A stretch of 64,000 bases of DNA, taken from NCBI GenBank assembly GCA_029785375.1, contig JAFLZV010000003.1, forward strand, positions 41,518-105,517, given 5' to 3'. Origin of the DNA: Nitrososphaerota archaeon. GTDB taxonomy: Archaea > Thermoproteota > Nitrososphaeria > Nitrososphaerales > Gagatemarchaeaceae. Below the pieces are notes generated by a model. That model saw only the letters and a program-made list of their open reading frames with translations, ran no database searches and had not been told where the DNA came from. The position numbers and the translations under genes were made by a program. The stretch's first letter is position 1. Each line of letters begins with the position of its first letter. Shown in pieces: positions 6,624-39,902 of the stretch.

Positions 6624-7398
6624 GGCGCTGTCAACTTAGGGCCTCCGGAAGGCTCTGAATGAACCGCTGATACTCGTTTGGTCGTCCCTCTCTCTGATGA
6701 CGTTGTGGAAGTACCTGAAGACGGAAATCCAATTCCTGACGTGCCCGTGGTCGCATTCTTCCCTGAAGCAGGGGAAGAGGTCGTCGAAGTTCTCCAGCCT
6801 GTACTTCAGGGCCTGGTTGAACCTCTCGATGAGGTTCTTCCACTCGACGGGATAGACGCGGTGCTCCAGGCGGAGGAGCCTGCGCGCCTCGGGGTATCAA
6901 ACCACCACGCCGGTCCAGATGGGCTTAAGACCGTACCTGCTCCTGACCTCCTTCAGGAAGAGGTAGGCGTCGAGGCCGCTCTGATTGTACGAGACCCGGA
7001 AGTGCAGGAAGACCCTCAGGGCGGGCTCGTAGGCGGCCCAGACCCACACCCACGCCTGGCTCCCCCTGATGCGTATCATCGTCTCGTCCACGAAGAAGGT
7101 CCTCACTCTCTTCCTGTCGACGTCGAACCTGTCGCAGACCGGAGCCAGTCGCTGGACCCACTGGCGGATGGCCTCGTGAGACCTCTCGACGAAGGGCTCA
7201 AGAATCATCGACGCCTTCCTCAAACTGTTCGAACACAGAGAGACGAACGTCCCGGAAAGAACCAGCGGGAGGGATGTCCTTTCACGTTCCATGAACTTTG
7301 GAGAGTCCATGAGGCGTGGGAGGCATCATCCCCTCAAACCCGAAGGAAGCAACGAAGCTAGAGCATCAGCTCAATTCATTCCTTAAGTTGACAGCGCC
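6624..7398 (-). mobile_element. Insertion sequence (IS6-like), inactivated, with 15-bp perfect terminal inverted repeats
   Basis: GGCGCTGTCAACTTA at 6624-6638 and TAAGTTGACAGCGCC at 7384-7398 flank a transposase reading frame on the minus strand. Confidence 0.8.
6640..7310 (-). pseudogene. IS6-like DDE transposase, disrupted
   Basis: RVRTFFVDETMIRIRGSQAWVWVWAAYEP...FLKEVRSRYGLKPIWTGVVV*YPEARRLLRLEHRVYPVEWKNLIERFNQALKYRLENFDDLFPCFREECDHGHVRNWISVFRYFHN. An in-frame TGA sits at 6897-6899 and the TDG catalytic Asp is missing. The 3' limit is approximate. Confidence 0.75.
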
Positions 7399-9258: not shown

Positions 9259-10143
9259 ATGGGGAACAGCATACCAGTCGAGCTAGCCTACGACTCCAAG
9301 GCGCAGGTTGGCGAAGGGCCGAGCTGGGACGAGAGGCGAGGGGTCCTCCACTGGGTGGACATAATCTCAGGCCTTGTGAACACCTACCACCCCTCAACCT
9401 CGGAGAACAAGTCGAGAAGAGTGGGGAGGTTCGTGAGTTCCGTGGTCCCTTCGAAGTCAGGAAGGGTCGTGATGACACTCCAGCACGAGGTCTGCGCCCT
9501 GGATCTGGAGAGCGGCAAAGTCAAGGTTCTTGCGGTGGCGGAGGCCGGCGAAGAGGAGAACAGGTTCAACGACGGGAAGTGCGACCCTGCTGGGAGGCTC
9601 TGGGCCGGGACCATGAGCCTGAAAGGGAAGAAGGGGAACGGCGCGCTCTACGTGTTGGAACGGGGCAGAAAAATTAGGAAGGTGCTTGGGGGGGTCAGCA
9701 CTTCCAACGGGCTTGGGTGGAGTCCCGACGGAGGGACAATGTACTACATCGACACCCCCACGAGGAAGGTGTCGGCCTTCGACTGCGAGATAAACACTTG
9801 GGAAATAAAGAACAGGAGGACAGTGGTCGACTTCGGGGGTCAGCCTGGGAACCCTGACGGGATGGCCGTAGACGAGGAGGGGAAGCTCTGGGTCGCCCAC
9901 TGGGGAGGATGGCGGGTGACAAGATGGAATCCCGAGACAGGGGAGAACCTCTCCCAGGTGGACTTGCCCGTACCCCTGGTGTCCTCTTGTTGCTTCGGGG
10001 GGGAGAAACTGGACAGGTTGTACATAACCACGGCGAGGACAGGGTTAGACGCTGAACAGCTCTCCGAAGTCCCCAACTCGGGGGGGCTCTTTGTCGCCCA
10101 GGTCGGCGCCAGAGGTCTACCCACCTACGCATTTGATGAGTGA
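9259..10143 (+). CDS. SMP-30/gluconolactonase/LRE family sugar lactonase
   Basis: VGEGPSWDERRGVLHWVDI, NRFNDGKCDPAGRLWAGTM, STSNGLGWSPDGGTMYYIDT, GNPDGMAVDEEGKLWVAHWGG. Confidence 0.92.
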   Translation: MGNSIPVELAYDSKAQVGEGPSWDERRGVLHWVDIISGLVNTYHPSTSENKSRRVGRFVSSVVPSKSGRVVMTLQHEVCALDLESGKVKVLAVAEAGEEENRFNDGKCDPAGRLWAGTMSLKGKKGNGALYVLERGRKIRKVLGGVSTSNGLGWSPDGGTMYYIDTPTRKVSAFDCEINTWEIKNRRTVVDFGGQPGNPDGMAVDEEGKLWVAHWGGWRVTRWNPETGENLSQVDLPVPLVSSCCFGGEKLDRLYITTARTGLDAEQLSEVPNSGGLFVAQVGARGLPTYAFDE

Positions 10144-10193: not shown

Positions 10194-11372
10194 TCATCTT
10201 CTCTTCTTTGTGCGCCGAGTCCCCTTCATGTTCCTGTCCTCCCACCCCTCCTGGAAGATGTTGAACTCGGTGACGTCGGTGGCGAGGTGCTCCTCGACTG
10301 CTCTCATGTCGAGCTCCACCCCCAGCCCTGGTTTCGTCGGGACCTTCATCTCCCCTCCTTCAACCGTCAATGCCTCCTTCAGCAGGTCATTCCTCCATTC
10401 CACGTCGAACTCGTCAAAGCTCTCTTGAATGTCGAAGTTGGGGATGCATGCGTCAAGCTGGAGACAGGCCGCCGTCGCGACGGGCCCTTCCGCCTGGTGT
10501 GGAGCCACCGTTATGAAGTGAGGTTCTGCCAAGGCGCTTATCTTCTTCCCCTGCATTATACCTCCTGTGTTGACAAGGTCTGGCTGGACCACGTCCACGG
10601 CCCGGCTCTCAATCAGGGGAGCGAACCCATAGTTGGTGAGCACCCTCTCCCCGCTGGCTATGGGTATCGTTGTCTTGCTCTTCACCTCTCTCAGCGCCAT
10701 GATGTCCTCGGGGGGGACGGGCTCCTCGAACCATCTGGGGTTGTACTCCTCCATCAGCTTGGCGATCCTCACAGCTGTCTCGGGCTTGAACCTACCGTGC
10801 CCTTCGACCAAGATGTCTACGTAGTCCCCCACGGCCTCTCTTACCGCGCGGACTCTCTCTATGGCCCTCTCGACTTCCCCCTGAGTCGCGGACATGTATG
10901 CAGTTCCGAAGGGGTCGAACTTCAACGCGGTGTACCCCCTTGCCTTGACCTCCTTTGCCTTCTCTCCGAAGTCGTCGGCAGACCTGGCCCCCGTGTACCA
11001 GCCGTTGGCGTACACCTTCACAGTAGACGAGGCGTCCCCCCCGAAGAGGGCGTGTATGGGCGCCCCGTAGTGCTTTCCGAGCAGGTCCCAGCATGCAGTC
11101 TCTACAGCCCCCATGGCCGTTACATTGACCGCCGAAGCGTTCCTGTTGAAGGAGTCCCTGTACCATTCGTTCCAGTTCTTCTCAATCTGGAAGGGGTCAC
11201 TGTCGATGTAGTACTTCTTCCTCTCCTCTAACTCGGCCACCACGGCCGAACTTTCCCCGTAGAGGGTCGCCTCGGAGATCCCCTGTAGCCCTGTGCTCGT
11301 TTCAAGCTGGACGAACACCCACCTCTTCCACGGGTTCCCCACGATGTATGTCTCGAGCCCGGTAATCTTCAT
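10194..11372 (-). CDS. Enolase superfamily sugar-acid dehydratase (galactonate/gluconate dehydratase-like)
   Basis: ETACWDLLGKHYGAPIHALFGG, EGHGRFKPETAV, WFEEPVPPED, IASGERV, VAPHQAEGPVATAA. Confidence 0.9.
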   Translation of the reverse strand: MKITGLETYIVGNPWKRWVFVQLETSTGLQGISEATLYGESSAVVAELEERKKYYIDSDPFQIEKNWNEWYRDSFNRNASAVNVTAMGAVETACWDLLGKHYGAPIHALFGGDASSTVKVYANGWYTGARSADDFGEKAKEVKARGYTALKFDPFGTAYMSATQGEVERAIERVRAVREAVGDYVDILVEGHGRFKPETAVRIAKLMEEYNPRWFEEPVPPEDIMALREVKSKTTIPIASGERVLTNYGFAPLIESRAVDVVQPDLVNTGGIMQGKKISALAEPHFITVAPHQAEGPVATAACLQLDACIPNFDIQESFDEFDVEWRNDLLKEALTVEGGEMKVPTKPGLGVELDMRAVEEHLATDVTEFNIFQEGWEDRNMKGTRRTKKRR

Positions 11373-12397
11373 GCCAAACCCTCCCTGGCATGCCCCCTCC
11401 CGTCAAGCGAGCGGAGGCAGGGGATGACCTCCTTGTTGCAGGCATCTATGAACTTCTCTTCGGAAGGGCTTGCGCTATGGAACTGAATCTCCTCGAAACC
11501 ATAGGACATAGCATCCATTGCGCTCTTTATGATGTCTTCAGCGGAAGTTGCGATGTTCCAAGCCTTCGATAGCTCCTCGTCCGAGTGAACTCCCCCCTCA
11601 CGCTCTAGCTCCCTCGGGTCGTTCAGCCCTGAACCAAGGACGCCGGGGATCAAGCCAGGCTTCCACTTGGAGGCGGACCTCAGCGCCCTGTCGTAGTCTT
11701 CGTCGAAGGAGAGGAAGAGCTCGAGGTTCTTCCTTATGGTGGAGGGGTCCCTCCCCGCCTTGCGGGCGGATCGGGCTATGATTTCCCAGGTGTCTCGGAA
11801 CCTTCCCAGAAAGGGGCTCGAGATAGCGTATCCGTCGGCGTGGGACCCAACGAGCTCGGCGGACTTTGGTCCGAGTGCGGCCACGTAAATCGGGACCTTT
11901 CCTCTAGGCCTCGTGTATAGGTTAGCCCCCTTCAGCTTGAAGTACTTTCCTTCGTACGTCACGAAGTCCTCGGTCCAGAGTCTTCTGATTATTTCGATCG
12001 ACTCGCGGAGCCGCTGGAGCCTCTCTTCAAACCGGGGCCATCGGAGGCCGAGGGGGACTTCGTTCATCGCCTCGCCCGTCCCTAGGCCTAGGAAGAAGCG
12101 GTCGGGGAACATCTCGTCCATGGTGGCGAAGGCCTGGGCGACCAGCCCGGGATGGTACCTCCCTATCGGTGCGGTGACCATGGTTCCGAACCTCATGCGT
12201 GGGAGGACCGCGGCAGCAGAGCTCATCCAAGTCCAAGCGAAACCCCCGGCCGCCCCGGTGTGGAACCAAGGATGGAAGTGGTCGCTTATGGCAACGAACT
12301 CGAACCCAGCCGAGTCCGCTCTCTTCGCGAACTCCAGGAGCCTGCTCGGCTGGTGCCCTTCTTCTTCGGCCCTGTACCCGAACGCACTCGCGGACAA
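11369..12397 (-). CDS. F420-dependent LLM-class oxidoreductase, glucose-6-phosphate dehydrogenase (FGD)-like
   Basis: FVAISDHFHPWFH, FLGLGTGEAMNEVPLGLRWPRFEERLQRLRESIEIIRRLW, VPIYVAALGPKSAELVG closely resemble mycobacterial FGD motifs. 4-nt overlap with the next gene. Confidence 0.87.
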   Translation of the reverse strand: MSASAFGYRAEEEGHQPSRLLEFAKRADSAGFEFVAISDHFHPWFHTGAAGGFAWTWMSSAAAVLPRMRFGTMVTAPIGRYHPGLVAQAFATMDEMFPDRFFLGLGTGEAMNEVPLGLRWPRFEERLQRLRESIEIIRRLWTEDFVTYEGKYFKLKGANLYTRPRGKVPIYVAALGPKSAELVGSHADGYAISSPFLGRFRDTWEIIARSARKAGRDPSTIRKNLELFLSFDEDYDRALRSASKWKPGLIPGVLGSGLNDPRELEREGGVHSDEELSKAWNIATSAEDIIKSAMDAMSYGFEEIQFHSASPSEEKFIDACNKEVIPCLRSLDGRGHAREGLA

Positions 12398-12401
12398 GCG
12401 G

Positions 12402-13244
12402 TTATGCCTTTGCCGCAGTCCCCTTCAGGTGCTTTACGCCCCTTGTTACCCCTTCCTCAGGGGAGTAGACCGGGTCTTCGTGCTCCATGGAGAGGGCGTT
12501 GGCGTATGCTGCCTCCTTGAGCTTGTGGCCGAGCTCCGTCCAGTCGATCAGCCCCTCGCCTGGGACGCGGAACCTCCACCACCCCTTGGCGTTGACCCCG
12601 TCTCGCGACAGCCTGTCTCTGAGGATCTCCGTATCTTTCGCATGGACGTGGTAGATCCTGTCCCCGAACTTCTCTACGGGCGTCTTATAATCTATCATCT
12701 GCCAGACGAAATGGGATGGGTCGTAGTTCAGGCCGAGGGTCTTCGAAGGGACGGTCTTGAACATGCGCTCGATTCGCGGGATGTTGTAGACCGCCGAGCC
12801 CCAGTGGACCTCTACCCCGATCTTCACGTTCCTCGAAGAGGCGTGATCCACCAGGTCCCCCATCGACTCTCCGAACTCCTTGAACGTCCTGTCTTCGTCC
12901 CATTCGGGGGCCTGGGCGCCCGCGAACGTGTTCACCACGGGGACGCCGAGCGCACTTGCCAGGTCCACGGCTTTCTTGAAGTTCTCGTTTATCGTCTTCC
13001 TCTTCGCAGGGTCCACTGCGAGGTGGTTGGCGTGCCCGCTGAGGGAAGAGATGCCAAGCTTGTACTTCGACACCGCCTTCTTGGTGTCCGCGCCCCTGTT
13101 CACCAGCTCCCTGTCGAGGTTTATGTGCGGGTCACCCGGGTGGGCGGCGATCTCCACAGTCTCGCACCCGATCCCTGACACGAACTTCAGCGCTTCTTCG
13201 AACGACCTGTCGTGGAAGATTGCAGTGAAGACCCCCACTTTCAT
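12402..13244 (-). CDS. Sugar phosphate isomerase/epimerase-like TIM barrel (AP-endonuclease-2 family)
   Basis: [75 protein letters not shown]. Confidence 0.9.
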   Translation of the reverse strand: MKVGVFTAIFHDRSFEEALKFVSGIGCETVEIAAHPGDPHINLDRELVNRGADTKKAVSKYKLGISSLSGHANHLAVDPAKRKTINENFKKAVDLASALGVPVVNTFAGAQAPEWDEDRTFKEFGESMGDLVDHASSRNVKIGVEVHWGSAVYNIPRIERMFKTVPSKTLGLNYDPSHFVWQMIDYKTPVEKFGDRIYHVHAKDTEILRDRLSRDGVNAKGWWRFRVPGEGLIDWTELGHKLKEAAYANALSMEHEDPVYSPEEGVTRGVKHLKGTAAKA

Positions 13245-14278
13245 GCTCTTGCCACCACCTCATGGCTGGCGCTCTGGCGTCCCGCCGAGCCACCGTAGCT
13301 GACGGCCCGCCCCGTGGCCATAGACTCATACTCCGCCGTTATGAGCCTGACTACATCCCTCCCGTCAGATGCAGTCTGGAGAGGTTCGCGCCCGGTGTCC
13401 AAGCATTCGGCGAAGTGCTCTATCTCCGCGATGAACGTATCCTTCGCGTTCGGCCATTCGCGTCTGGCGTCGCTCATCCCAAGCGCCTTCAGCACCAGAA
13501 GGTTGTGGGTTCCGAGCAATTCACCCCTCTCCCCTGTGACAGAGAAGATATACCCTCCCGACGGGACTGGAAAGGCCCAAGACGACAGTATGTTCCCCAT
13601 TGAGCCGTCCTGGAACTTCAAGGCGACGAAGCCGGTGTCCTCTCCGTCCATCGTCACCCTGTACCTTCCACCCATCGCAAATACCTGCGCGACGGGAGCC
13701 GGGGCGAAGTAGTTCATCATGTAGTTGGGGTGGTACCCTGTGTCAATCAGCTCCCCCCCTCCCATTTCATCCCGGTTCGTCCTCCAGCCGCTGATTCCGT
13801 TGTTCCTGAAGCAGTCCTGGGTCCTGATGAAGTGGATTTTTCCGATGAGCCCTTCACCTATCAACCTTTTCGCCTCCTGGAGGGCTGGCGCGAAGAGCTG
13901 GTTGTGGGCGGGCATGAACTTCTTCCCTGACTTCCTGACAGCCTCGACTATCTCATCAGCGTCCTTCACCGTCAGGCACATTGGTTTCTCGCACATGGCG
14001 TGCTTGCCCGCCGCCAAGGCCTTCAATATGACAGGCTTGTGCAGTTTGTGCGGGAGACAGATGTCGACGAAGTCTACATCGGCGTCCCGGAGCATCTTCT
14101 CGTAGTCCGTGTACGCCTCCCCTCCGAGCGAAGCGCCGAGCTTCTCCGCTGCATCCTTCCTGACGTCCGCGACAGCTGTCACCTCGACGCGCCCCTTGAG
14201 CGCCTCGTACCCCCTGGCGTGGGCCCAAGAGATTCCTCCACAGCCGATTATCGCTGCTTTGAGCATGGCTGCGCCCAC
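13241..14278 (-). CDS. Gfo/Idh/MocA family NAD(P)-dependent oxidoreductase
   Basis: LKAAIIGCGGISWAHARGYEAL, DFVDICLPHKLHKPVILKALAAGKHAMCEKPMCLTVKDADEIV. Start overlaps the next gene by 4 nt. Confidence 0.93.
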   Translation of the reverse strand: MGAAMLKAAIIGCGGISWAHARGYEALKGRVEVTAVADVRKDAAEKLGASLGGEAYTDYEKMLRDADVDFVDICLPHKLHKPVILKALAAGKHAMCEKPMCLTVKDADEIVEAVRKSGKKFMPAHNQLFAPALQEAKRLIGEGLIGKIHFIRTQDCFRNNGISGWRTNRDEMGGGELIDTGYHPNYMMNYFAPAPVAQVFAMGGRYRVTMDGEDTGFVALKFQDGSMGNILSSWAFPVPSGGYIFSVTGERGELLGTHNLLVLKALGMSDARREWPNAKDTFIAEIEHFAECLDTGREPLQTASDGRDVVRLITAEYESMATGRAVSYGGSAGRQSASHEVVARA

Positions 14279-14331
14279 TCAGGCCGAGAAATAAAGTATT
14301 GCAAGAGCTCGCGCTGCATTCGGCCCTACGG

Positions 14332-15537
14332 CTAACTTGCTAATCCCGGCGCTTCCCATCTCTGTGAGGAGATTGACTTCTGGACCGCTTCGATGACTTC
14401 GTCTGCCCTCAGCCCGTCGTAGAAAGTGGCGCCCCATGGGGCCACCCTCCCGTCACGGGCTATCACGTCGAAGAAGTGATAGACTTCGTGCACCATTGCG
14501 TGTTCCCAGCCGATGATATGCCCCCGGGGCCACCACTTCCCGACGAAGGGGTGGTCAGCTTCAGTCACCAAAATCGTCTTGAACCCCCTCCTGTCTGACT
14601 GCTCTCTGTTCGAATAGACCTCCAGTTCGTTTAGCCTCTCGAGGTTGAATCCTATCGAGCCTTCGGTGCCATGTATCTCTATCCTCTGGAAGTTGCGCCT
14701 CCCGGCGCAGAATCTTGATGCTTCCAGGGACCCGACTGCCCCTCCCGTGAACTTGACAAGGGCGACGAAGGCGTCGTCAACGTCCACCTCTCCCTTCTTT
14801 GTGGGGTCGCCCGGGAGCGGCCTCGCGCCAGTAAACGTCTTCGCAATCCCGACAGTCGCACCTATTTCTCCTACTAGGAACCTGGAGAGATCTATTATGT
14901 GGGCGCCAAGGTCACCGAGAGCCCCGCTCCCGGCAGACTCCTTCCTGAACCTCCACGTGCGGGGGACGTCAGGGTCCATCGCCCAGTCTTGAAGATAAGC
15001 CGCCCTGAACTGGAGGACTTTTCCTATGTACCCCTCGTCGATGAACTGCTTCGCCAGCCTGACCGCGGGGACGAACCTGTAGTTGAAGGCGACCATGTGC
15101 TTGACCCCAGCTTTCTCCGCCGCCCTGAGCATCGCCTGCGACTCCCCCGGGTTCCTCCCTAGGGGCTTCTCGCACAAGATGTGCTTCCCCCGCTCAGCAG
15201 CCTCGACGCACGGCCCGAGGTGCATGTCGTTGGGGAGCCCGTTATCCACCACTTCTACCTCGGGGTCCGCCACCAGTTTGTTCCAGTCGGTGTAGTAGCG
15301 CTGGAAGCCGAATCTGACGGCGGCCTCCTTCACCTTCCCTTCGGTCCTCCCAGCTATGGCTACGAGCCGGGGACGCGCCGGGGGAGGGTAGAAGAAGACA
15401 GGCATCCTGGCGTAGGCGTTGCTGTGCGCTTTACCCATGAACGAGTAACCTAGCATACCTACCCCTAACTCAGGAATCTCCTCTTGCCGCTTCGATGCTT
15501 CCTTCACAGACGTATCAACTCTCCAGCGTCCATCCAC
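14332..15537 (-). CDS. Gfo/Idh/MocA family oxidoreductase
   Basis: VGMLGYSFMGKAHSNAYARMP, KHILCEKPLGRNPGESQAM, GALGDLGAHIIDLSRFLVG. Confidence 0.93.
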   Translation of the reverse strand: MDGRWRVDTSVKEASKRQEEIPELGVGMLGYSFMGKAHSNAYARMPVFFYPPPARPRLVAIAGRTEGKVKEAAVRFGFQRYYTDWNKLVADPEVEVVDNGLPNDMHLGPCVEAAERGKHILCEKPLGRNPGESQAMLRAAEKAGVKHMVAFNYRFVPAVRLAKQFIDEGYIGKVLQFRAAYLQDWAMDPDVPRTWRFRKESAGSGALGDLGAHIIDLSRFLVGEIGATVGIAKTFTGARPLPGDPTKKGEVDVDDAFVALVKFTGGAVGSLEASRFCAGRRNFQRIEIHGTEGSIGFNLERLNELEVYSNREQSDRRGFKTILVTEADHPFVGKWWPRGHIIGWEHAMVHEVYHFFDVIARDGRVAPWGATFYDGLRADEVIEAVQKSISSQRWEAPGLAS

Positions 15538-15626
15538 AACCCCGAGAAACGAACCCCCCTTAGAACATATAACAGTTTGCGAACAAGTGGCTTCGGGACA
15601 ATTGTGCCCAGCAGCCCCATCAAGGC

Positions 15627-16435: not shown

Positions 16436-17884
16436 ATGAACGAAGCGAGCCCCGGTCGTCTGGTGCTGAGCGAGGCGCTCGGCGTCCTCCCACCCGAGTG
16501 GCCGCACTCACTTCTGCCTAAGTTAAGGTCGAGACGGATAAAGGCCCGAGAGAAGGTCGTCGTCGTGGACGACGACCCCACAGGCGCTCAGACGGTCCAT
16601 GACGTGTCGATACTGACCCGGTGGTCGACCACCTCTCTGCGTTCTGAGCTCGCAGACGATTCACCCGCCTTCTTCTTGCTCTCCAACTCGCGAAGTCTTC
16701 CGCTCGCCGAGGCGAGAGCCCTTAACAAGGACATCGGCCTGGAACTGGCCGAAGCTAGTCGGACGCTGGAACGGAGGCTCGTAGTCATCAGTCGCAGCGA
16801 CTCCACCCTCAGGGGACACTTCCCCGGGGAGATGGAGGCGCTGGAAGAAGGGCTCGGAGGAGGCTTCGATGCGTGGTTTCTGATACCTTTCTTCCGAGAG
16901 GGCCACAGATACACAATCGGCGACATCCACTATGCAGCCGAAGACGGTTGGCTGGTGCCTGTGGGAGGGACAGACTACGCGAAGGATGCCACCTTTGGGT
17001 ACTCTTCGTCGAACCTGAAGAGCTGGGTCGAAGAGAAGACAGAGGGGCGAGTCCGAGCGGAAGACGTTACTTCTATCTCGCTGGAAGAGATACGCCTGGG
17101 CGGCCCGTCGCGTGTAGCAGAGCTTGTCCTGGGCCTCCGCCGGGGGAGCGTTTGCGTTGTGAACGCGGCGAGCCTCCGCGACCTGGAGGTCTTCACCCTC
17201 GGCGTATCAGAGGCCGAGGCGAAGGGCAGGAGGTACCTCTATCGCACCGCTGCGTCGTTCGTGCAGGTACGGATAGGCCAGGGACGGTCCCACCTGCTCA
17301 CACGGCGGGAGCTGAAGCTGTCCGGTAGTGAAGGGGGACTGGTGGTAGTCGGCTCCCACGTCCCCAAGTCTACCGCTCAGCTGGAGTCGCTTCTGAAAGA
17401 TGACACGAAGGTCGCGGCCGTAGAGGTTGATGCGGAGACTCTGCTCGATGAGAACGGCAGGGCAGACGAAATCAGCCGAGTCGTGCGCCTTACAGAGGCC
17501 CGCCTCTCTCGGGGCGAAGACGTCGTTGTCTTCACCAGTCGCAAGGTCCTCATCGGAGGCCTCCCCGACGCCAGCCTTACAGTCGCACAGAAGATATCTG
17601 ACGGCGTGGCAGCGGTGGTTCACGGCATCTCGAGGAGGCCGCGCTACGTCCTCACCAAGGGAGGCGTGACATCCGCCGACATCGCTACGAAGGCCCTCGG
17701 TGTTCGCCGGGCCTTTGTGCTAGGGCAGATTGCGGAAGGCGTCCCCGTGTGGCGTCTCGGGCCTGAGAGCCGCTTCCCAGGCCTGGCATACCTGATTTTC
17801 CCCGGGAACGTGGGGGGACTCGACGCTCTCACGGAGGTTGTGGAAGCGCTGGGGCTCAAGACCGGAACCAAGGGGAGCAGCTGA
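16436..17884 (+). CDS. Four-carbon acid sugar kinase (DUF1537 / OtnK-DtnK-LtnK-like)
   Basis: VVVVDDDPTGAQTVHDVSILTRWS, SRSDSTLRGHFPGE, and a C-terminal domain with YVLTKGGVTSADIATKALGVRRAFVLGQIAEGVPVW and FPGNVGG. Confidence 0.92.
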   Translation: MNEASPGRLVLSEALGVLPPEWPHSLLPKLRSRRIKAREKVVVVDDDPTGAQTVHDVSILTRWSTTSLRSELADDSPAFFLLSNSRSLPLAEARALNKDIGLELAEASRTLERRLVVISRSDSTLRGHFPGEMEALEEGLGGGFDAWFLIPFFREGHRYTIGDIHYAAEDGWLVPVGGTDYAKDATFGYSSSNLKSWVEEKTEGRVRAEDVTSISLEEIRLGGPSRVAELVLGLRRGSVCVVNAASLRDLEVFTLGVSEAEAKGRRYLYRTAASFVQVRIGQGRSHLLTRRELKLSGSEGGLVVVGSHVPKSTAQLESLLKDDTKVAAVEVDAETLLDENGRADEISRVVRLTEARLSRGEDVVVFTSRKVLIGGLPDASLTVAQKISDGVAAVVHGISRRPRYVLTKGGVTSADIATKALGVRRAFVLGQIAEGVPVWRLGPESRFPGLAYLIFPGNVGGLDALTEVVEALGLKTGTKGSS

Positions 17885-17885
17885 A

Positions 17886-18740
17886 ATGCTAGCGGCGATG
17901 ACGGACCTCTTGGCCGAGGCGAAGGCAGGCGGGTTCGCTGTGGGGTCGTTCAACGTCTACAATCTGGAAGGGGCGCTGGCAGTGGTGGAAGCAGCGGAGA
18001 GAACCCGAAGCCCTGCGGCGATACAGCTACATTCTCCTGCAGTCAAGAGCGGCGGACCCCCACTGGTGGCTCTGTGTCTGGCCGCCGCGAGGGGGGCCAA
18101 CGTGCCGATGGCAGTTCACTTCGACCACGGTTCTTCAGTCGGAGAAATAGAGGAGGCGCTTGCAATCGGCTTCACGTCAATCATGGCGGACGGGTCTAGG
18201 CTGCCTTACGCCGAGAACGTGGAATTCACGAAGAAGATGACTACCCTAGCTCACTCCAAGAAGGTCGCAGTCGAGGGGGAACTGGGACGGCTTGCAGGCA
18301 CAGAAGGGGACATGGTCGTTCCGGAGTCCGAAGGAAGCATGACTGATCCAGACCAAGCCGCATCTTTCGTAGAGCAGACAGGGGTGGACGCCCTTGCGGT
18401 GTGCATCGGCAACTCGCATGGGCGCTCGGGCACCAAAGACCGCCTTGATTTCGGGCTGCTGGCGCGTATCAGAAGCGCCGTGGTTGTCCCCCTCGTGCTT
18501 CACGGAGCCTCGGGAGTTTCGGAGCCATCGATTCGCCGCTGTATTGACCTCGGCGTCACAAAATTCAACGTCAACGCAGAGTTGCGCGGGGCATACGTGA
18601 GCGCCCTGAGCCAGGGGTTGCACAGCCAGCCTCCTGACCTCGCTGAGCTGATGCGGTCCGCGACCGTGGCGGTGCGAGACGTCGTCAGCAACAAACTGCG
18701 TATCTTCAGGTCAAGCGGGAGGGCCGGAGGGATGGTGTAA
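17886..18740 (+). CDS. Class II ketose-bisphosphate aldolase (FbaA/GatY-like)
   Basis: GSFNVYNLEGALAVVEAAE, VHFDHGSSVGEIEEALAIGFTSIMADGS, VEGELGRLAGTEGD, LHGASGVSEPSIRRCIDLGVTKFNVNAEL. ATG at 17886 chosen over the longer ORF. Confidence 0.92.
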   Translation: MLAAMTDLLAEAKAGGFAVGSFNVYNLEGALAVVEAAERTRSPAAIQLHSPAVKSGGPPLVALCLAAARGANVPMAVHFDHGSSVGEIEEALAIGFTSIMADGSRLPYAENVEFTKKMTTLAHSKKVAVEGELGRLAGTEGDMVVPESEGSMTDPDQAASFVEQTGVDALAVCIGNSHGRSGTKDRLDFGLLARIRSAVVVPLVLHGASGVSEPSIRRCIDLGVTKFNVNAELRGAYVSALSQGLHSQPPDLAELMRSATVAVRDVVSNKLRIFRSSGRAGGMV

Positions 18741-19072
18741 CCTGACGGGGAACTGCCGGATTCGGCGTCGCGCCTGCTGCTGGTCCCCCCTTGGAGGGAG
18801 ATGGCGTACGAGTTCGTCGAGGGATTCCAGAAGTCCAAGGAGACGTAACGCGACAGCCCCTGGAGGCCTGGTCGAACTCGGGCCAGACCGAGCTCCCCCG
18901 GAGGATCGGTGGGAAGCTGCCGAGCGGGATGGACGCGCCCTCGCTGCCGAGGGGTAAATGCGCAAGCTATTGGGACGATGGCGCTGAAGGCCTCCGGCGC
19001 TTCAACGCTCAAATAAGGCGGAGGGGCAGAAGGAGCTGCTTGAGGGAGGGTCCTTCTTTGGGGGACGGCTCC

Positions 19073-19936
19073 GTGCCGGGCCTTGTGGGAATGGTCGGGC
19101 TAGGGGTGATGGGGAGCCGGATGGCGAGGAACCTGCTCCGTGCAGGGCATATGCTCGTTGTGTATGACAAGATTCCTAGCGCGGTGGAGGAGGCTGTGGG
19201 CGCTGGTGCGGCAGCGGCGAAGACGCCAGAGGAAGTCGCGAGGAAGTGCCGGACCGTTCTCCTTTCTCTCCCGACGACGGAGGTGGTACGGGAAGTCGTA
19301 CTTGGAAAGGAGGGGCTTGTGGGCGGGCTATCTCACGGGGGAGTCGTCATAGACACAAGCACAGTAGACCCTGAGGTAGCGGTGGAGCTCTCTGAAGAGC
19401 TGTCTGCCAAGGGTTGCTACTTTCTGGACGCGCCTGTGAGCGGCGGACCTGAGGGCGCCGATAAGGCGACCCTTTCCATAATGGTTGGCGGAGATGCGTC
19501 AGCGTTCGAAAGGAGCGTAAGCCTCCTGGAGAAGGTCGGGAAGCACGTATTCCATGTCGGCCCGTCGGGGTCCGGCCAGAAGATGAAGTTGTTCAACCAA
19601 GGGCTCGTATCGGTGTACTTCGGGGTCGTATCAGAGTTGTACCCCTGGTCCAGGCGCGCGGGAATTGACGGAGATGCCATTCTGGAAGTGATACAGTCAA
19701 GTTGGGGGGATTCCCCGGTCTTCCGACACTTCATGTCAGTGGTGAGGTCAGGCGAGTTCTCCGACGGAGCGATGGTCAGGTTGTTTAAGAAGGATGTCAC
19801 CCTGCTGTTGAAGAACGCGGAGGACAACGGCAGCAGGATCCCTCTGGTCAGGCTTTCCTTGAGGCTCTTCGAGCGGGCGTCCGAGTCTGGGCACGACAAC
19901 GACGACGCGAGCGTCCTCTGCAAACAGTATGAATAA
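19073..19936 (+). CDS. 3-hydroxyisobutyrate dehydrogenase-like (L-threonate dehydrogenase LtnD-like)
   Basis: GLVGMVGLGVMGSRMARNLLRAGHMLVVYDK, FLDAPVSGGPEGADKATLSIMVGG, GQKMKLFNQ, LFKKDVTLLLKNAED. GTG start at 19073 inferred. Confidence 0.88.
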   Translation: MPGLVGMVGLGVMGSRMARNLLRAGHMLVVYDKIPSAVEEAVGAGAAAAKTPEEVARKCRTVLLSLPTTEVVREVVLGKEGLVGGLSHGGVVIDTSTVDPEVAVELSEELSAKGCYFLDAPVSGGPEGADKATLSIMVGGDASAFERSVSLLEKVGKHVFHVGPSGSGQKMKLFNQGLVSVYFGVVSELYPWSRRAGIDGDAILEVIQSSWGDSPVFRHFMSVVRSGEFSDGAMVRLFKKDVTLLLKNAEDNGSRIPLVRLSLRLFERASESGHDNDDASVLCKQYE

Positions 19937-33421: not shown

Positions 33422-34384
33422 TCACCACCAGACCTTCTTCAGCCTCTCCTTGATTAGGAGAGGCTTGAGGAAAGACATCGCCTTCTCCAGCCCGTCTTCC
33501 CTGCTCATGACAGGGTCCTCATGCTCATAGCTCATCACGTAGTCGTACCCGACCTCTGCGAACGCGGTGAACACGCGTCTCCATGGGACTTGCCCCCAAC
33601 CTGGGACCCTGAACCTGAAGCCTCTGTTGGGCCTCATCCACGCGCCGTGGGGTATGACCCCTTCGGCCCTCAGGGACTCTTCCACCAGCTCTGCGTCCTT
33701 GGCATGGCTATGGTAGATGCGGTCCCCGAACTTCTTGATGAATTGCACAGGATCAATCAGCTGCCAGACGAAGTGGCTAGGGTCGAAGTTGAACCCGAAC
33801 TCCTTCCTCTTTCCGATCGCCTTGAGGGCCAGTTCTGAGGTCTCGATGTTGTAGGCGACCTCCTGAGGGTGGACTTCGTGGGCGAACTTCACCCCCTCAG
33901 AATGGTACTTGTCCATTATTTCCCCCCACCTCTCAGCGAAGAGCTTGAAGTACCCGTCGTACTCTTTCTCGTATGCAGGGGGGAAGTTGTACCAGGCGCT
34001 CCAGTTGGGGCACCCGACGAAGCCACAGACGACGGGGACGTCGAGTTGCTTAGCGGCCTCCGCGGTCTTCTTCATCCGGGCAATCCCGTACTTCACCTTC
34101 TCTGAGGGGGCCCCTTTGTAGATGGGGTCGGTGGAGGCGTCGTGGGGGCCGAGGACCAGCTGCCCTTCCATGTGGTTGGAGAGGGCTGAGATTGTCAGCC
34201 CGTACTTTTCTGCTAGCCTTTTGACCCTTAGGTCTCCCCTGTCTACCACGGCGTCTATGTCAAGATGCCTCCCCCCCTTCCACGCCACTAGCTCGATGGC
34301 TTCGTAACCGAGCTCGGAGACCCGCTTGGCGACTTTCTCGAGTGGAAGCTCATCGTACATCACAGTGAGGACGCCTAGCTTCAT
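33422..34384 (-). CDS. Sugar phosphate isomerase/epimerase-like TIM barrel
   Basis: [83 protein letters not shown]. Start moved to internal ATG at 34384. Confidence 0.9.
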
Positions 34385-35019
34385 CCTAAACCGTGGGAGG
34401 AGAGGTCTATCGGGTGAATTTAAAGGTGAACCGACAAGCGGAGTTTTGAATGCCCGGGAGTTAAACGCGCCCTTTAGGAAGGACTCGGCTGCCGGGTACG
34501 GCCAGCCCCACGTGCCAGGCACGCCAACCTAGGCCAGCTTGAACGCATGGCGGAGGCTACACCTGGTCTAGAGCGGGACACGAGCTCCGTCCTCCATCGG
34601 TCGCGCACCCCCAGACGCTCGTGGAAGGCGAGCCCTCTCAGCGGGTTCCCCAAGCGGAAGACGGGCGTGCGGAGGCGTGGGCGTCTGCCGATGTCCGGCT
34701 TCGGCTCTCAGACCAGGCAGGCCGGAGACCTGGGGGGAGGCACGCGCCCTCCCCCTGGAATGAGGCCGAAGGACACGCACAGAATTTGTCCTTGCTCTTT
34801 CCCTAAAGTGAGCAGTCATCGCTCCGTGGAAGTTCATTCAGTGGTGGAGTCGAGCAGATTAGGTCACGGTTATCGCGTCGTGTCTTGCAAGAAGTCTCCC
34901 GGGAAGTCTGTGACCTTCCGGGCGATTTGGTGTAGATCGCACCGGTAGGCTGCTCGAGGAAGGCGCGCCATGGAGAGGAGCGCTTTCCTTATAATGCGAA
35001 AAGGTGTGGGCAGCAGGGT

Positions 35020-36233: not shown

Positions 36234-38813
36234 TCAGAGAGTCCTGTTTAGCATCTTGAGGCTCTTATGATTGACGTTCTTCGTGCTAATCTCGTACACG
36301 TTGTCGTTCACGTCGAAGAGCACAATCGACTTTTCCTGCACGATGACGTTCCTCCTCCCCCTGGTGTTCACCACCGCATCCCCTTCCTTCGTGGACACGT
36401 GCCATACTAGTTCGTCACCCTTCACTTCTATCTTCTCGACGGAGTCGACCTCGAACTTCAACCTGTTGAACCTGAGAGCCTTCACCAGCGCGTCTTGCGA
36501 CTCCGCGTCCAGGGACTCATAGTCTTCTATCACCGGGAGTGAGGGGGCCCTGTCCATCCCCTGGCTCAGGAGGACGAACCGAGGGTTCGAGATGGGGAAG
36601 GGGCTGACAGGCATCACGTTCTCGAACCTCTGGCTCCCAGAGGTTACCGTGACTCGACTCTGCCTGTTCCCACTTACGACTTTCGGAGAAGACAGTACGT
36701 ACACGCTTGACTGCTGGTGGTCTACGTCTCCGCCGTTCTTGATTGCAAGCGGTCCCAACTCGGCGTAGTCCTGGAACATCTTCCTGAACTCCCCCGGGGT
36801 GGCGAGGAGCTCCCCTGGGGCGCCGGATTGGACAACCACCCCTTCCTTCATCACCACCACGCTGTCAGCCGCCATCGCCTCGCGGGCGTTGTGCGTGACG
36901 AGAATGGTGGTCTTCCCTTCGGCGACTTTCATCATGGTCCGGAAGACTTCGTACTCGCTCAGGACATCCAGCTGCGAGGTCGCTTCGTCGAGGATCATCA
37001 CGTCAGGGTCCTCCATTATGGCCCGGGCTAGGGAGATCCTCTGCCTCTGCCCCCCCGAGAGCTGGGAGCCCTTCTCCCCCAGGCTTGTGTCGTACGCCAT
37101 CGGCAGGCGCATTATCTCGTAGTGTATGTCCGATTCGACGCACGCAGTAAGGACCTTGCCTGGACTGAAACGACGCGGATCTTGTTCCATCGAGCCGTAG
37201 CTGACGTTGTACGCCACAGACGCGTCGAAGAGGAACACATCCTGAGGAACATAGGACACCTTCTCTCTCAGGTAGGCGAGGTCCACGTCGGCGATTGGCG
37301 TCCCTCCGATTGCGATTTCTCCTCTGTCCACCTTGTAGAATCTCAACAGGAGTTTCGCGATGGAGGTCTTCCCCGAGCCGCTCCTCCCCACGACAGCGAC
37401 CTTGGTCTTCCCACGTATATTCAGGTTGAGCGCCTTGACGACCGGGTTGTACGGCTCGTAACCGAACCACACATCTTTGAAGACGAGGTCCCCGCTCAGG
37501 GACGGCCTGAGCCTCTTAGACTTGGAGTTGTCCTCCATTTCCCCTTCCATCACCTCGCGGAGCCTGTCACCAGAGGTGACAGCCTGCTGTATGAACGGCA
37601 CGATGTTGCTCAGGTTGTTTATCGGGGCATAGAACTGGGCCATATAGGCAACGAAACCCACCAGAATCGCGTAGTTGACGCCATTGAAGAACACTTGGTT
37701 TCCGCCGAACCACCAGATCCCCACGGTCGCCACCGCGGTCACGAAACCGAGAAGGGGCCAATAACTCAGGTTCATCTTCGTCGCGTCTATCTGCGACTGG
37801 TAGAGGTTGTCGAGGGCGCTCGAGAGCTTCTTTGCCTCGAAGTCCTCCTTGGCGAAGGACTTCACCACGAAGAATCCTGGGATGGTGTCTGTGACCATTG
37901 CGGTCGCGTCTGCGCTCCTCCTCCAGTTCCTGTGGTAGGTCAGATGAGACCTCGACCTGTAACTGATGAGCGCGTAGACTATGAACGGAACTGGGATGAG
38001 CACGAATAGGGCGAGGTGGGGGTCAAGGAAGAAGAGGATGACACCTATGCCGATGAGGGTGAGGCCGTTCACCAGGAGTGTAGGGGTACCCCATACCATG
38101 AGCCACTGGGCGTTCCCCACGTCCGTGGTGAGCCGCGAGAGAATCCTTCCGGTCGTCATCCTTTCGACGAAGGTAGAGCTAAGGCGGGTCACGCGTTCGT
38201 ATACGCGTAGCCTGAGGTCGTTGACGACGCGCTGTCCGAGGATGTTGAGGAAGTACCCCTGCCCGACTGTCGCCAGAGCGATGAGGGCGTAGGTGCCGAG
38301 GAGGACAAGGGTGAGGGTTTCGAAGAAGCCGAAATCGGTCGCCCCCGTCTTGAAGGAGTCGATCAGCAGGACAAGAAGGTACGGAGGGACGAGATTCAGG
38401 GCCGTGAGGATGACAGAGAATAAGACGCCTATTATCAGCCTCCTCTTGTACGGTGTGAGGAAGGTGAAGAGCCACTTCAACGTGCTTGACCGGCTCCACT
38501 TCCTCCCTTCCTCTCTGTAAGGCTCTATGATGCCTTCTCCCAGCAAGTGGTTGTTCAGAGCTACGGCGAACGACCTGAACTCGTTGGCCTTCCTCTTTGT
38601 GAAATAGGCGACCTCGAGGGGTCCTTCACCTTTCGTCTCGAGCACGAGCCTCGCAATCCCTGTCCCCTCTTCTACGTACGCCTTGGTCACTTCGGCAAGA
38701 TTGACAGAGAGGGTCCTCTTCCCGCCCGATTCCACGAGGAGGATATCCCTGTCGACGAAGACTACTTCAGGCCTCAGCCTTAGACTACTGTCCAGGTCCG
38801 TTTCCAGTCGCAA
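36234..38813 (-). CDS. ABC exporter (fused TMD-NBD) with C-terminal DUF1854-like domain
   Basis: VAVVGRSGSGKTSIAKLLLRF (Walker A), LSGGQRQRISLARAIMEDPDVMILDEATSQLD (signature, Walker B). C-terminus ENVMPVSPFPISNPRFVLLSQ...VWHVSTKEGDAVVNTRGRRNVIVQEKSIVLFDVNDNVYEISTKNVNHKS resembles DUF1854. Confidence 0.88.
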   Translation of the reverse strand: MRLETDLDSSLRLRPEVVFVDRDILLVESGGKRTLSVNLAEVTKAYVEEGTGIARLVLETKGEGPLEVAYFTKRKANEFRSFAVALNNHLLGEGIIEPYREEGRKWSRSSTLKWLFTFLTPYKRRLIIGVLFSVILTALNLVPPYLLVLLIDSFKTGATDFGFFETLTLVLLGTYALIALATVGQGYFLNILGQRVVNDLRLRVYERVTRLSSTFVERMTTGRILSRLTTDVGNAQWLMVWGTPTLLVNGLTLIGIGVILFFLDPHLALFVLIPVPFIVYALISYRSRSHLTYHRNWRRSADATAMVTDTIPGFFVVKSFAKEDFEAKKLSSALDNLYQSQIDATKMNLSYWPLLGFVTAVATVGIWWFGGNQVFFNGVNYAILVGFVAYMAQFYAPINNLSNIVPFIQQAVTSGDRLREVMEGEMEDNSKSKRLRPSLSGDLVFKDVWFGYEPYNPVVKALNLNIRGKTKVAVVGRSGSGKTSIAKLLLRFYKVDRGEIAIGGTPIADVDLAYLREKVSYVPQDVFLFDASVAYNVSYGSMEQDPRRFSPGKVLTACVESDIHYEIMRLPMAYDTSLGEKGSQLSGGQRQRISLARAIMEDPDVMILDEATSQLDVLSEYEVFRTMMKVAEGKTTILVTHNAREAMAADSVVVMKEGVVVQSGAPGELLATPGEFRKMFQDYAELGPLAIKNGGDVDHQQSSVYVLSSPKVVSGNRQSRVTVTSGSQRFENVMPVSPFPISNPRFVLLSQGMDRAPSLPVIEDYESLDAESQDALVKALRFNRLKFEVDSVEKIEVKGDELVWHVSTKEGDAVVNTRGRRNVIVQEKSIVLFDVNDNVYEISTKNVNHKSLKMLNRTL

Positions 38814-39137: not shown

Positions 39138-39902
39138 ATGGCTTCTAAAGTCGCCCTTCAACTGTACACCGTACGCGATCTGCTCAAGACACCGGAGCAG
39201 GCTGAGGAGACGTTGCGGAAGGTCCGCCAGATTGGGTACAATGCTGTGGAGCACTCGGGAGTGGCGTCGCTGGCGCCGCAGCGCCTCCGCGACCTCCTCC
39301 ACGAGCTCGGGCTAGAAACTGTTTCCGTACACGTGTCCTACGACGAACTCACGCCTGGGACAGGGAAGGCCGAAGAGAGGTGCGCCATGTACGGGTGCAA
39401 AGAAGTAAGCCTCTCCAGCATGCCTCACGAACGCTTCAGGAGCTACCCGGAGCTCCGGAAGGAAGCTGCGAGGTTGACGGAGATTGGAAAGAAGCTCGCT
39501 TCAAAAGGGCTCAGGTTCTCGTATCACAGCCACTGGTTCGAGTACGAAAGACTCTCCGAAGGGGTGGGCCTCGAGATCCTATACAGAGAGACTGATCCAA
39601 AGTTCGTCAAGTCCCAACTCGACATCTGCTGGGCGCAGTACGCCGGAGCGGACCCCGCCAGATGGATCAGGAATCTGAAGGGGCGGGTTCCTACGGTCCA
39701 CGCCAAGGACCTCGGCGTCAAGGATGGTAAGCAGATGACGCTCGAGGTGGGTGAAGGTAACATCAACTGGCCCAACGTCCTGGACGCGTGCAAAGAAGCG
39801 GGGGTGGAGTGGTACATCGTGGAGCAGGACAGCTGCTGGCGGTCGCCTCTCGATAGCGTGGCTGTCAGTCTGGCGAACCTGAACAAGATGGGGATACAGT
39901 AA
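39138..39902 (+). CDS. Sugar phosphate isomerase/epimerase-like TIM barrel
   Basis: MASKVALQLYTVRDLLKTPEQAEETLRKVRQIGYNAVEHSG, LDICWAQYAGADPARWIRNLKGRVPTVHAKDLG, WYIVEQD. Confidence 0.92.
   Translation: MASKVALQLYTVRDLLKTPEQAEETLRKVRQIGYNAVEHSGVASLAPQRLRDLLHELGLETVSVHVSYDELTPGTGKAEERCAMYGCKEVSLSSMPHERFRSYPELRKEAARLTEIGKKLASKGLRFSYHSHWFEYERLSEGVGLEILYRETDPKFVKSQLDICWAQYAGADPARWIRNLKGRVPTVHAKDLGVKDGKQMTLEVGEGNINWPNVLDACKEAGVEWYIVEQDSCWRSPLDSVAVSLANLNKMGIQ

Follow-up and report, generated by a model that had tools for sequence, protein, structure and literature searches.

Organization of the locus

Five genes were analyzed in a stretch of 64,000 nucleotides (nt), hereafter the window, taken from contig JAFLZV010000003.1 (C5) of a Nitrososphaerota archaeon. 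They form an unbroken minus-strand run (Table 1): two junctions are 4-nt overlaps (13241-13244, 11369-11372), and at the other two the genes lie 4 and 53 nt apart. An earlier note, made from the letters of the sequence, had described five co-directional genes with two such overlaps and named their protein families. The coordinates of the open reading frames bear out the former point, and the Pfam assignments (GFO_IDH_MocA twice, AP_endonuc_2, Bac_luciferase and MR_MLE, with E-values from 1e-15 to 1e-70) the latter. The reading that we favour, with a confidence only somewhat better than even, is that the five genes specify an archaeal pathway which cleaves sugars oxidoreductively, through 3-keto intermediates, and leads into a sugar-acid route linked to F420. 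This reading is based on protein families, catalytic residues, the predicted fold of the barrel, phylogeny, gene linkage and the context of the surrounding genomic island.

Table 1. Features of the operon and of its surroundings; positions refer to the window unless stated otherwise.
Feature	Position	Strand	Remarks
LgdA-like Gfo/Idh/MocA dehydrogenase	14332-15537	-	401 aa; first gene
Gfo2, second Gfo/Idh/MocA oxidoreductase	13241-14278	-	345 aa; second gene
TIM barrel, assigned to 2-hydroxy-3-keto-glucal hydratase class	12402-13244	-	280 aa; third gene
Luciferase-like F420-type oxidoreductase, putative aldose 1-dehydrogenase	11369-12397	-	342 aa; fourth gene
Enolase-superfamily sugar-acid dehydratase, gluconate/galactonate dehydratase-like	10194-11372	-	392 aa; fifth gene
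SMP-30/gluconolactonase-like protein (SGL), possible lactonase step	9259-10143	+	PF08450, 287.9 bits
TATA-like hexamer TTATAT (candidate)	15567-15572	-	precedes the operon's first start codon by about 32 nt; read from the sequence, without a statistic
TIM2, paralogue of the operon TIM barrel	33422-34522	-	2zds, 211.8 bits
TIM3, distant LgdB1-like TIM barrel	39138-39902	+	HxH motif; 48 bits to Arthrobacter LgdB1
Genomic island, about 79 kb	contig C5 about 14990-94020; window part 1-52503		absent from G059 and G154; GC contrast

Assignment of the TIM barrel

The AlphaFold2 model of the operon TIM barrel (pLDDT 90.2) was used in a fold search. The best match was 2zds (E 2e-21), followed by AtHYD, a 2-hydroxy-3-keto-glucal hydratase (8ro4, 5e-19), while Art22, IolE and epimerases scored 1e-14 or weaker; AtHYD ranks about five orders of magnitude in E-value above IolE and the epimerases. 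E-values for ketose 3-epimerases and hydroxypyruvate isomerases ranged from 1e-11 to 1e-14, against 1e-18 to 1e-21 for 2zds and AtHYD. In the phylogenetic tree, the operon TIM and TIM2 are placed in one class with AtHYD, LgdB3 and 2zds (support 100/99). Both carry the motifs ExH, DPSH, HxKD and ExED, whereas LgdB1 proteins carry HPH and DTAH; in the operon TIM, every ligand and base position typical of the class is kept. The metal-site residues of the operon TIM (E145/H147, D175, H201/K203 and E254) match the Glu-x-His, Asp, His-x-Lys, Glu site described for C-glycoside deglycosidases (PMC8563793).

Reference lgd operons were taken from Agrobacterium, Klebsiella and Arthrobacter plasmids, whose LgdA proteins are 67-87% identical to 6a3f; the labels LgdB1, LgdB3 and LgdC were assigned here to the plasmid genes by position and similarity. 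The second TIM barrel of these operons shares 74% or 69% identity with AtHYD, or else 71% with 2zds. A blastp comparison of the operon TIM with Agrobacterium LgdB1 gave no match. By predicted fold, tree and motifs, the operon TIM is assigned to the 2-hydroxy-3-keto-glucal hydratase class (AtHYD/LgdB3/SCO6571). Clustering with simple ketose isomerases, which by the earlier note would have refuted its proposal, is not seen: predicted fold and tree place the protein with AtHYD and LgdB3. Its identification as a ketose epimerase was rejected on cut-offs, motif and fold, and those as an LgdB1/OGE eliminase or a C-glycosidase subunit were rejected as well.

These data also bear on the possibility that the operon serves free sugars or inositols, in which case the two Gfo proteins would be conventional dehydrogenases of sugars or inositols, and the TIM barrel would be an inosose dehydratase or a ketose 3-epimerase. 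Some similarities point that way: the TIM barrel matches IolE weakly (67.4 bits), Gfo2 reaches 139 bits with IolG and 123 bits with aldose-aldose oxidoreductase, and the LgdA-like protein matches the scyllo-inositol/L-glucose dehydrogenase 5ya8 (202 bits). The scores, however, are far from the family cut-offs (139 against 355 bits for TIGR04380, IolG; 67 against 290 bits for TIGR04379, IolE), as they are for the epimerases; IolE has HxH where the operon TIM has ExH, the fold search ranks AtHYD well ahead of both IolE and epimerases, and the conserved partner barrel found in other genomes belongs to the hydratase class. IolG and IolE were therefore rejected on cut-offs, motif and fold, and this explanation is considered the least probable of those weighed here.

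Two further barrels lie in the window. TIM2 is found 18 kb from the operon, and is 37-42% identical to the operon TIM, depending on the alignment; TIM3, with its HxH motif and distant likeness to LgdB1, is found 23.6 kb away.

The LgdA-like dehydrogenase

The best NCBIfam match of the first protein is NF052479, levoglucosan dehydrogenase, with 408.7 bits (cut-off 650), and its best PDB match is the levoglucosan dehydrogenase (LGDH) 6a3f, with 357.7 bits. The catalytic residues E103, K104, D189 and H193 of LGDH, numbered as inferred from the PDB chain, correspond to E123, K124, D209 and H213, all four being kept; E103 and H193 have been named as catalytic (PMC10066097). A YLQDW..DP..P..WR stretch is also common to the two proteins. 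In the tree, the LgdA-like protein falls within an archaeal clade (100/99), whose sister is formed by KSB1, Chloroflexota and Acidobacteriota proteins, while LGDH groups (99/99) with other proteins from the order of the operon host. Since the catalytic residues are kept and the clade is separate, the LgdA-like enzyme and LGDH likely use the same chemistry, possibly on different substrates.

The same data allow a specific levoglucosan pathway to be considered, in which the single TIM barrel would perform both the LgdB1 and the LgdB2 steps, Gfo2 would act as LgdC, and the glucose released would be oxidized with F420 to gluconate and yield 2-keto-3-deoxygluconate. The top matches to LGDH, the shared stretch and the catalytic residues are in its favour, as are the LgdB3-type barrel of a real Arthrobacter lgd operon and the reported ability of bacterial LgdB2 to carry out both middle steps (PMC7676230). 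It is opposed by the tree, where the protein stands apart from the LGDH clade, by its score below the equivalog cut-off, by the lack in the operon of LgdB1 and of a dedicated sugar ABC transporter, and by the finding that the true sister of LGDH is another archaeal clade. Tree and NF052479 cut-off led us to reject the filing of the operon under this pathway, which appears improbable, if a little less so than an inositol or free-sugar role.

The dehydrogenases that are sister to true LGDH occur in the same order (L116, L115, L117, L119, L121 and L124), and several members carrying them cluster genes for a Gfo protein, an HxH (LgdB1-like) TIM barrel, a luciferase-like and an enolase-superfamily protein; one of them is the relative G133. 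Such clusters would be better archaeal candidates for a levoglucosan pathway than the present operon.

Gfo2, the F420-type enzyme and the dehydratase

Gfo2 is 23-27% identical to the candidate LgdC proteins, over part of its length only. A role as C3-keto reductase is proposed for it, with uncertainty.

The luciferase-like protein scores 220 bits with TIGR03557, above the cut-off of 210.4, and conserves residues E13, H40, W44 and E109 of FGD1. In the phosphate pocket, made in FGD1 by K198, K259 and R283 (PMC5352752), K259 is replaced by G and R283 by A, while the K198 position is occupied by L or R, according to the alignment method. The loss of K259 and R283 suggests an unphosphorylated substrate, and the enzyme likely acts on a non-phosphorylated sugar. 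CofE, involved in F420 biosynthesis, was found in five relatives, including G059, a member of the same genus.

The fifth protein scores 402 bits with NF040790 (cut-off 750) and 309.9 bits with NF010624 (cut-off 311), and is, in sequence terms, nearest to gluconate/galactonate dehydratases. A gene of the KDG (2-keto-3-deoxygluconate)-aldolase superfamily is present in the same genome.

Gene linkage in other genomes

The 398 genomes of the phylum were surveyed, counting the dehydrogenase at E-values up to 1e-100 and, as its neighbours, TIM matches no more than about 450 nt away. The dehydrogenase was found in 46 genomes, including that of the host; in 28 of the 45 others, a TIM2-type barrel adjoins it. 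Barrels of the TIM2 class also adjoin LgdA-like genes in Bathyarchaeota (L030), in several bacterial phyla and in Rhodococcus. In one genus of the phylum, the LgdA-TIM2 pair is found next to genes resembling a branched-chain-type ABC transporter.

In the complete genome G572 of the phylum, the gene for a GH78 rhamnosidase (52% identical to the GH78 protein of the island) adjoins those for a homologue of Gfo2 (47%), for the dehydrogenase (49%) and for a barrel with the ExH motif. A DUF1854 ABC protein (47%) and a zinc alcohol dehydrogenase are encoded close by; the former is common to the island (36234-38813) and to the GH78/LgdA cluster of G572 (L199, 15850-18468). The relatives G133 and G008 cluster a different LgdA-like gene with a Gfo, a TIM and a dehydratase gene, accompanied in G133 by an F420-type enzyme. 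On Rhodococcus plasmid pWB1, barrel, dehydrogenase, SDR and enolase-superfamily genes form a run, and an SMP-30 gene lies upstream at a distance of about 7 kb; the enolase-superfamily protein is only 26% identical to the operon dehydratase. In Novosphingobium pSA2 (L165), a 2zds-type TIM barrel is accompanied by a GMC oxidoreductase, a DUF6379 protein, a xylose-isomerase-like protein, a lactonase and a Gfo protein, a neighbourhood that speaks for 2zds acting as a hydratase.

The linkage data may also be explained by two independent units, one composed of the LgdA-like protein, Gfo2 and TIM, for glycosides or for the repair of damaged sugars, the other of the F420-type dehydrogenase and the dehydratase, for an unrelated aldose. 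Elsewhere in archaea the LgdA-TIM pair indeed occurs without the F420-type enzyme or the dehydratase, and the G572 trio lacks both. The unbroken minus-strand run, with its 4-nt gaps or overlaps, argues for a single unit, as do the similar LgdA/Gfo/TIM/F420-type/dehydratase set of G133 and the LgdA-TIM-SDR-dehydratase run of Rhodococcus. A division into two units is judged unlikely, though slightly more plausible than a dedicated levoglucosan pathway.

Proposed pathway

In the favoured scheme of 3-keto cleavage joined to F420-linked oxidation, the reactions, their order, the substrate and the cofactors used in vivo are all inferred. The LgdA-like enzyme would oxidize, with NAD+, the C3 of an O-linked sugar, either a glycoside or an anhydrosugar. 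Elimination and/or hydration would follow in the metal-dependent TIM barrel, both of these steps being reported for bacterial LgdB2, and Gfo2 would then reduce C3 and regenerate NAD+, a redox loop known for LgdA and LgdC in the bacterial pathway (PMC7676230). The free aldose would be oxidized at C1 by the luciferase-like enzyme with F420, the lactone being opened perhaps by the neighbouring SGL protein. Finally, dehydration of the aldonate by the enolase-superfamily enzyme would give a 2-keto-3-deoxy acid, to be split by aldol cleavage.

By sequence, the substrate may be a glycoside, an anhydrosugar or something else; a plant-type glycoside is the class best hinted at, because GH78 is linked twice to these genes. 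More tentatively, the LgdA-like protein and the hydratase-class TIM may constitute an oxidoreductive sugar-cleavage unit proper to archaea of this phylum and widespread among them, acting on an O-linked sugar, which the acquired island would here wire to an F420-dependent aldose dehydrogenase, passing sugar electrons to the F420 pool. The favoured scheme and its alternatives partly overlap.

Several observations weigh against the scheme. The LgdA-like protein does not reach the equivalog cut-off and lies apart from the LGDH clade. The operon has no LgdB1-type (HxH) eliminase, its TIM being of the ExH kind. Gfo2 resembles LgdC only remotely, no more than it does other members of the Gfo family, and among PDB entries an aldose-aldose oxidoreductase matches it best. 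CofE was not found in the host genome, a bin which is 61% complete (728 kb). With the TIM as bait, the exact five-gene set was not found in the 300 genomes sampled for the order or the 398 sampled for the phylum. The archaeal LgdA-TIM pair, moreover, often stands alone: the genes around it appear unrelated and include none for sugars, so that its role may not be catabolic.

The earlier note had proposed an archaeal version of DgpA/DfgA-type C-glycoside or 3-keto-glycoside cleavage; the SGL gene, the specific resemblance of the dehydrogenase to LGDH, TIM2 and the island had escaped it. The reaction class, that is C3 oxidation by a Gfo protein followed by elimination or hydration in a TIM barrel, is retained, and so is, as an idea, the feeding of the sugar into F420-dependent oxidation and acid-sugar dehydration; the DgpA/DfgA filing was rejected, as the DUF6379-type beta subunit is missing and the best matches lie on the levoglucosan-pathway branch.

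Genomic context

The operon sits in a lower-GC catabolic island. Positions 1-15 kb of the contig and 52504-64000 of the window align to neighbouring stretches of G059 with 96-98% identity, whereas the approximately 79 kb between these flanks, operon included, are absent in G059 and G154. GC content is 0.58-0.62 within the island and 0.64-0.66 outside. A binning artefact was rejected, as both flanks match G059 at this identity and meet there within about 1.6 kb. The archaeal origin is confirmed by an isoleucyl-tRNA synthetase gene of the window, 97% identical to that of G059, and by a gene read as CdvB-like on the host flank of the contig. In G059 (L161, 4016-4999), a CdvC/Vps4-like ATPase is apparently interrupted by an intein directly past its GPPG motif. 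No clear direct repeat was detected by comparing the island edges with blastn, and no tRNA was found at the junction; a putative DDE transposase fragment lies inside the island at 6897-7310.

The island encodes GH78, GH36, GH38 and GH98-like glycoside hydrolases, sulfatases, several acid-sugar dehydratases and an SBP_5-type ABC transporter. The SGL gene is convergent with the operon, 50 nt separating the two ends. Divergent from the operon, consecutive genes for a four-carbon acid-sugar kinase, a class II aldolase and hydroxyisobutyrate-dehydrogenase-like proteins (16436-19936) are read as an acid-sugar phosphate aldol pathway. The TTATAT hexamer upstream of the LgdA-like gene may be a TATA-like element.

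Comparison with known systems

Sugar cleavage without hydrolysis, via 3-keto intermediates, has been described in bacteria; PMC7676230 and PMC10066097 report no other hosts, the latter describing the LGDH pathway in bacterial phyla only, and a literature search on levoglucosan, archaea and MocA gave no archaeal case. With the lgdA-lgdB1-lgdB2/B3-lgdC pathway (PMC7676230, PMC10066097), the operon shares the LgdA-like catalytic residues, a TIM barrel of the LgdB2/B3 class and a second Gfo protein. It differs in being archaeal, in the clade of its dehydrogenase, in lacking LgdB1 and an ABC transporter, in a Gfo2 not recognisable as LgdC, and in having an F420-type dehydrogenase and a dehydratase built in.

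The O-glycoside pathway of Agrobacterium (AtOGE/AtHYD; PMC10628242, PDB 8ro4) is similar in its hydratase, to whose class the operon TIM is assigned by fold, tree and motif, but its first enzyme is a flavin glycoside dehydrogenase (GlycDH), and a distinct enzyme, OGE, serves as eliminase; the operon encodes neither. The C-glycoside deglycosidases (DgpA/DgpB-C, CGE/CGD; PMC8563793) follow the same oxidize-then-eliminate logic and have the same Glu-x-His/Asp/His-x-Lys/Glu arrangement; none of the five genes, however, encodes a DUF6379-type beta subunit, and the TIM barrel is nearer to the hydratase class in sequence and predicted fold. FGD1 resembles the luciferase-like enzyme in family score and in the four conserved residues, and differs from it at K259 and R283, and uncertainly at K198. 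If the assignment holds, the latter enzyme would become a concrete candidate for an F420-dependent dehydrogenase of an unphosphorylated sugar, and a conserved two-gene unit of many archaea would gain a testable chemistry.

Finally, the PDB structures 2zds (SCO6571) and 4h3v (Kribbella), whose titles assign no function, belong to the same two protein classes as the TIM barrel and the dehydrogenase, classes which are encoded by adjacent genes in many actinobacteria. The linkage described above points, for both, to a role involving 3-keto sugars; if the assignment holds, these orphan structures would gain a likely function.

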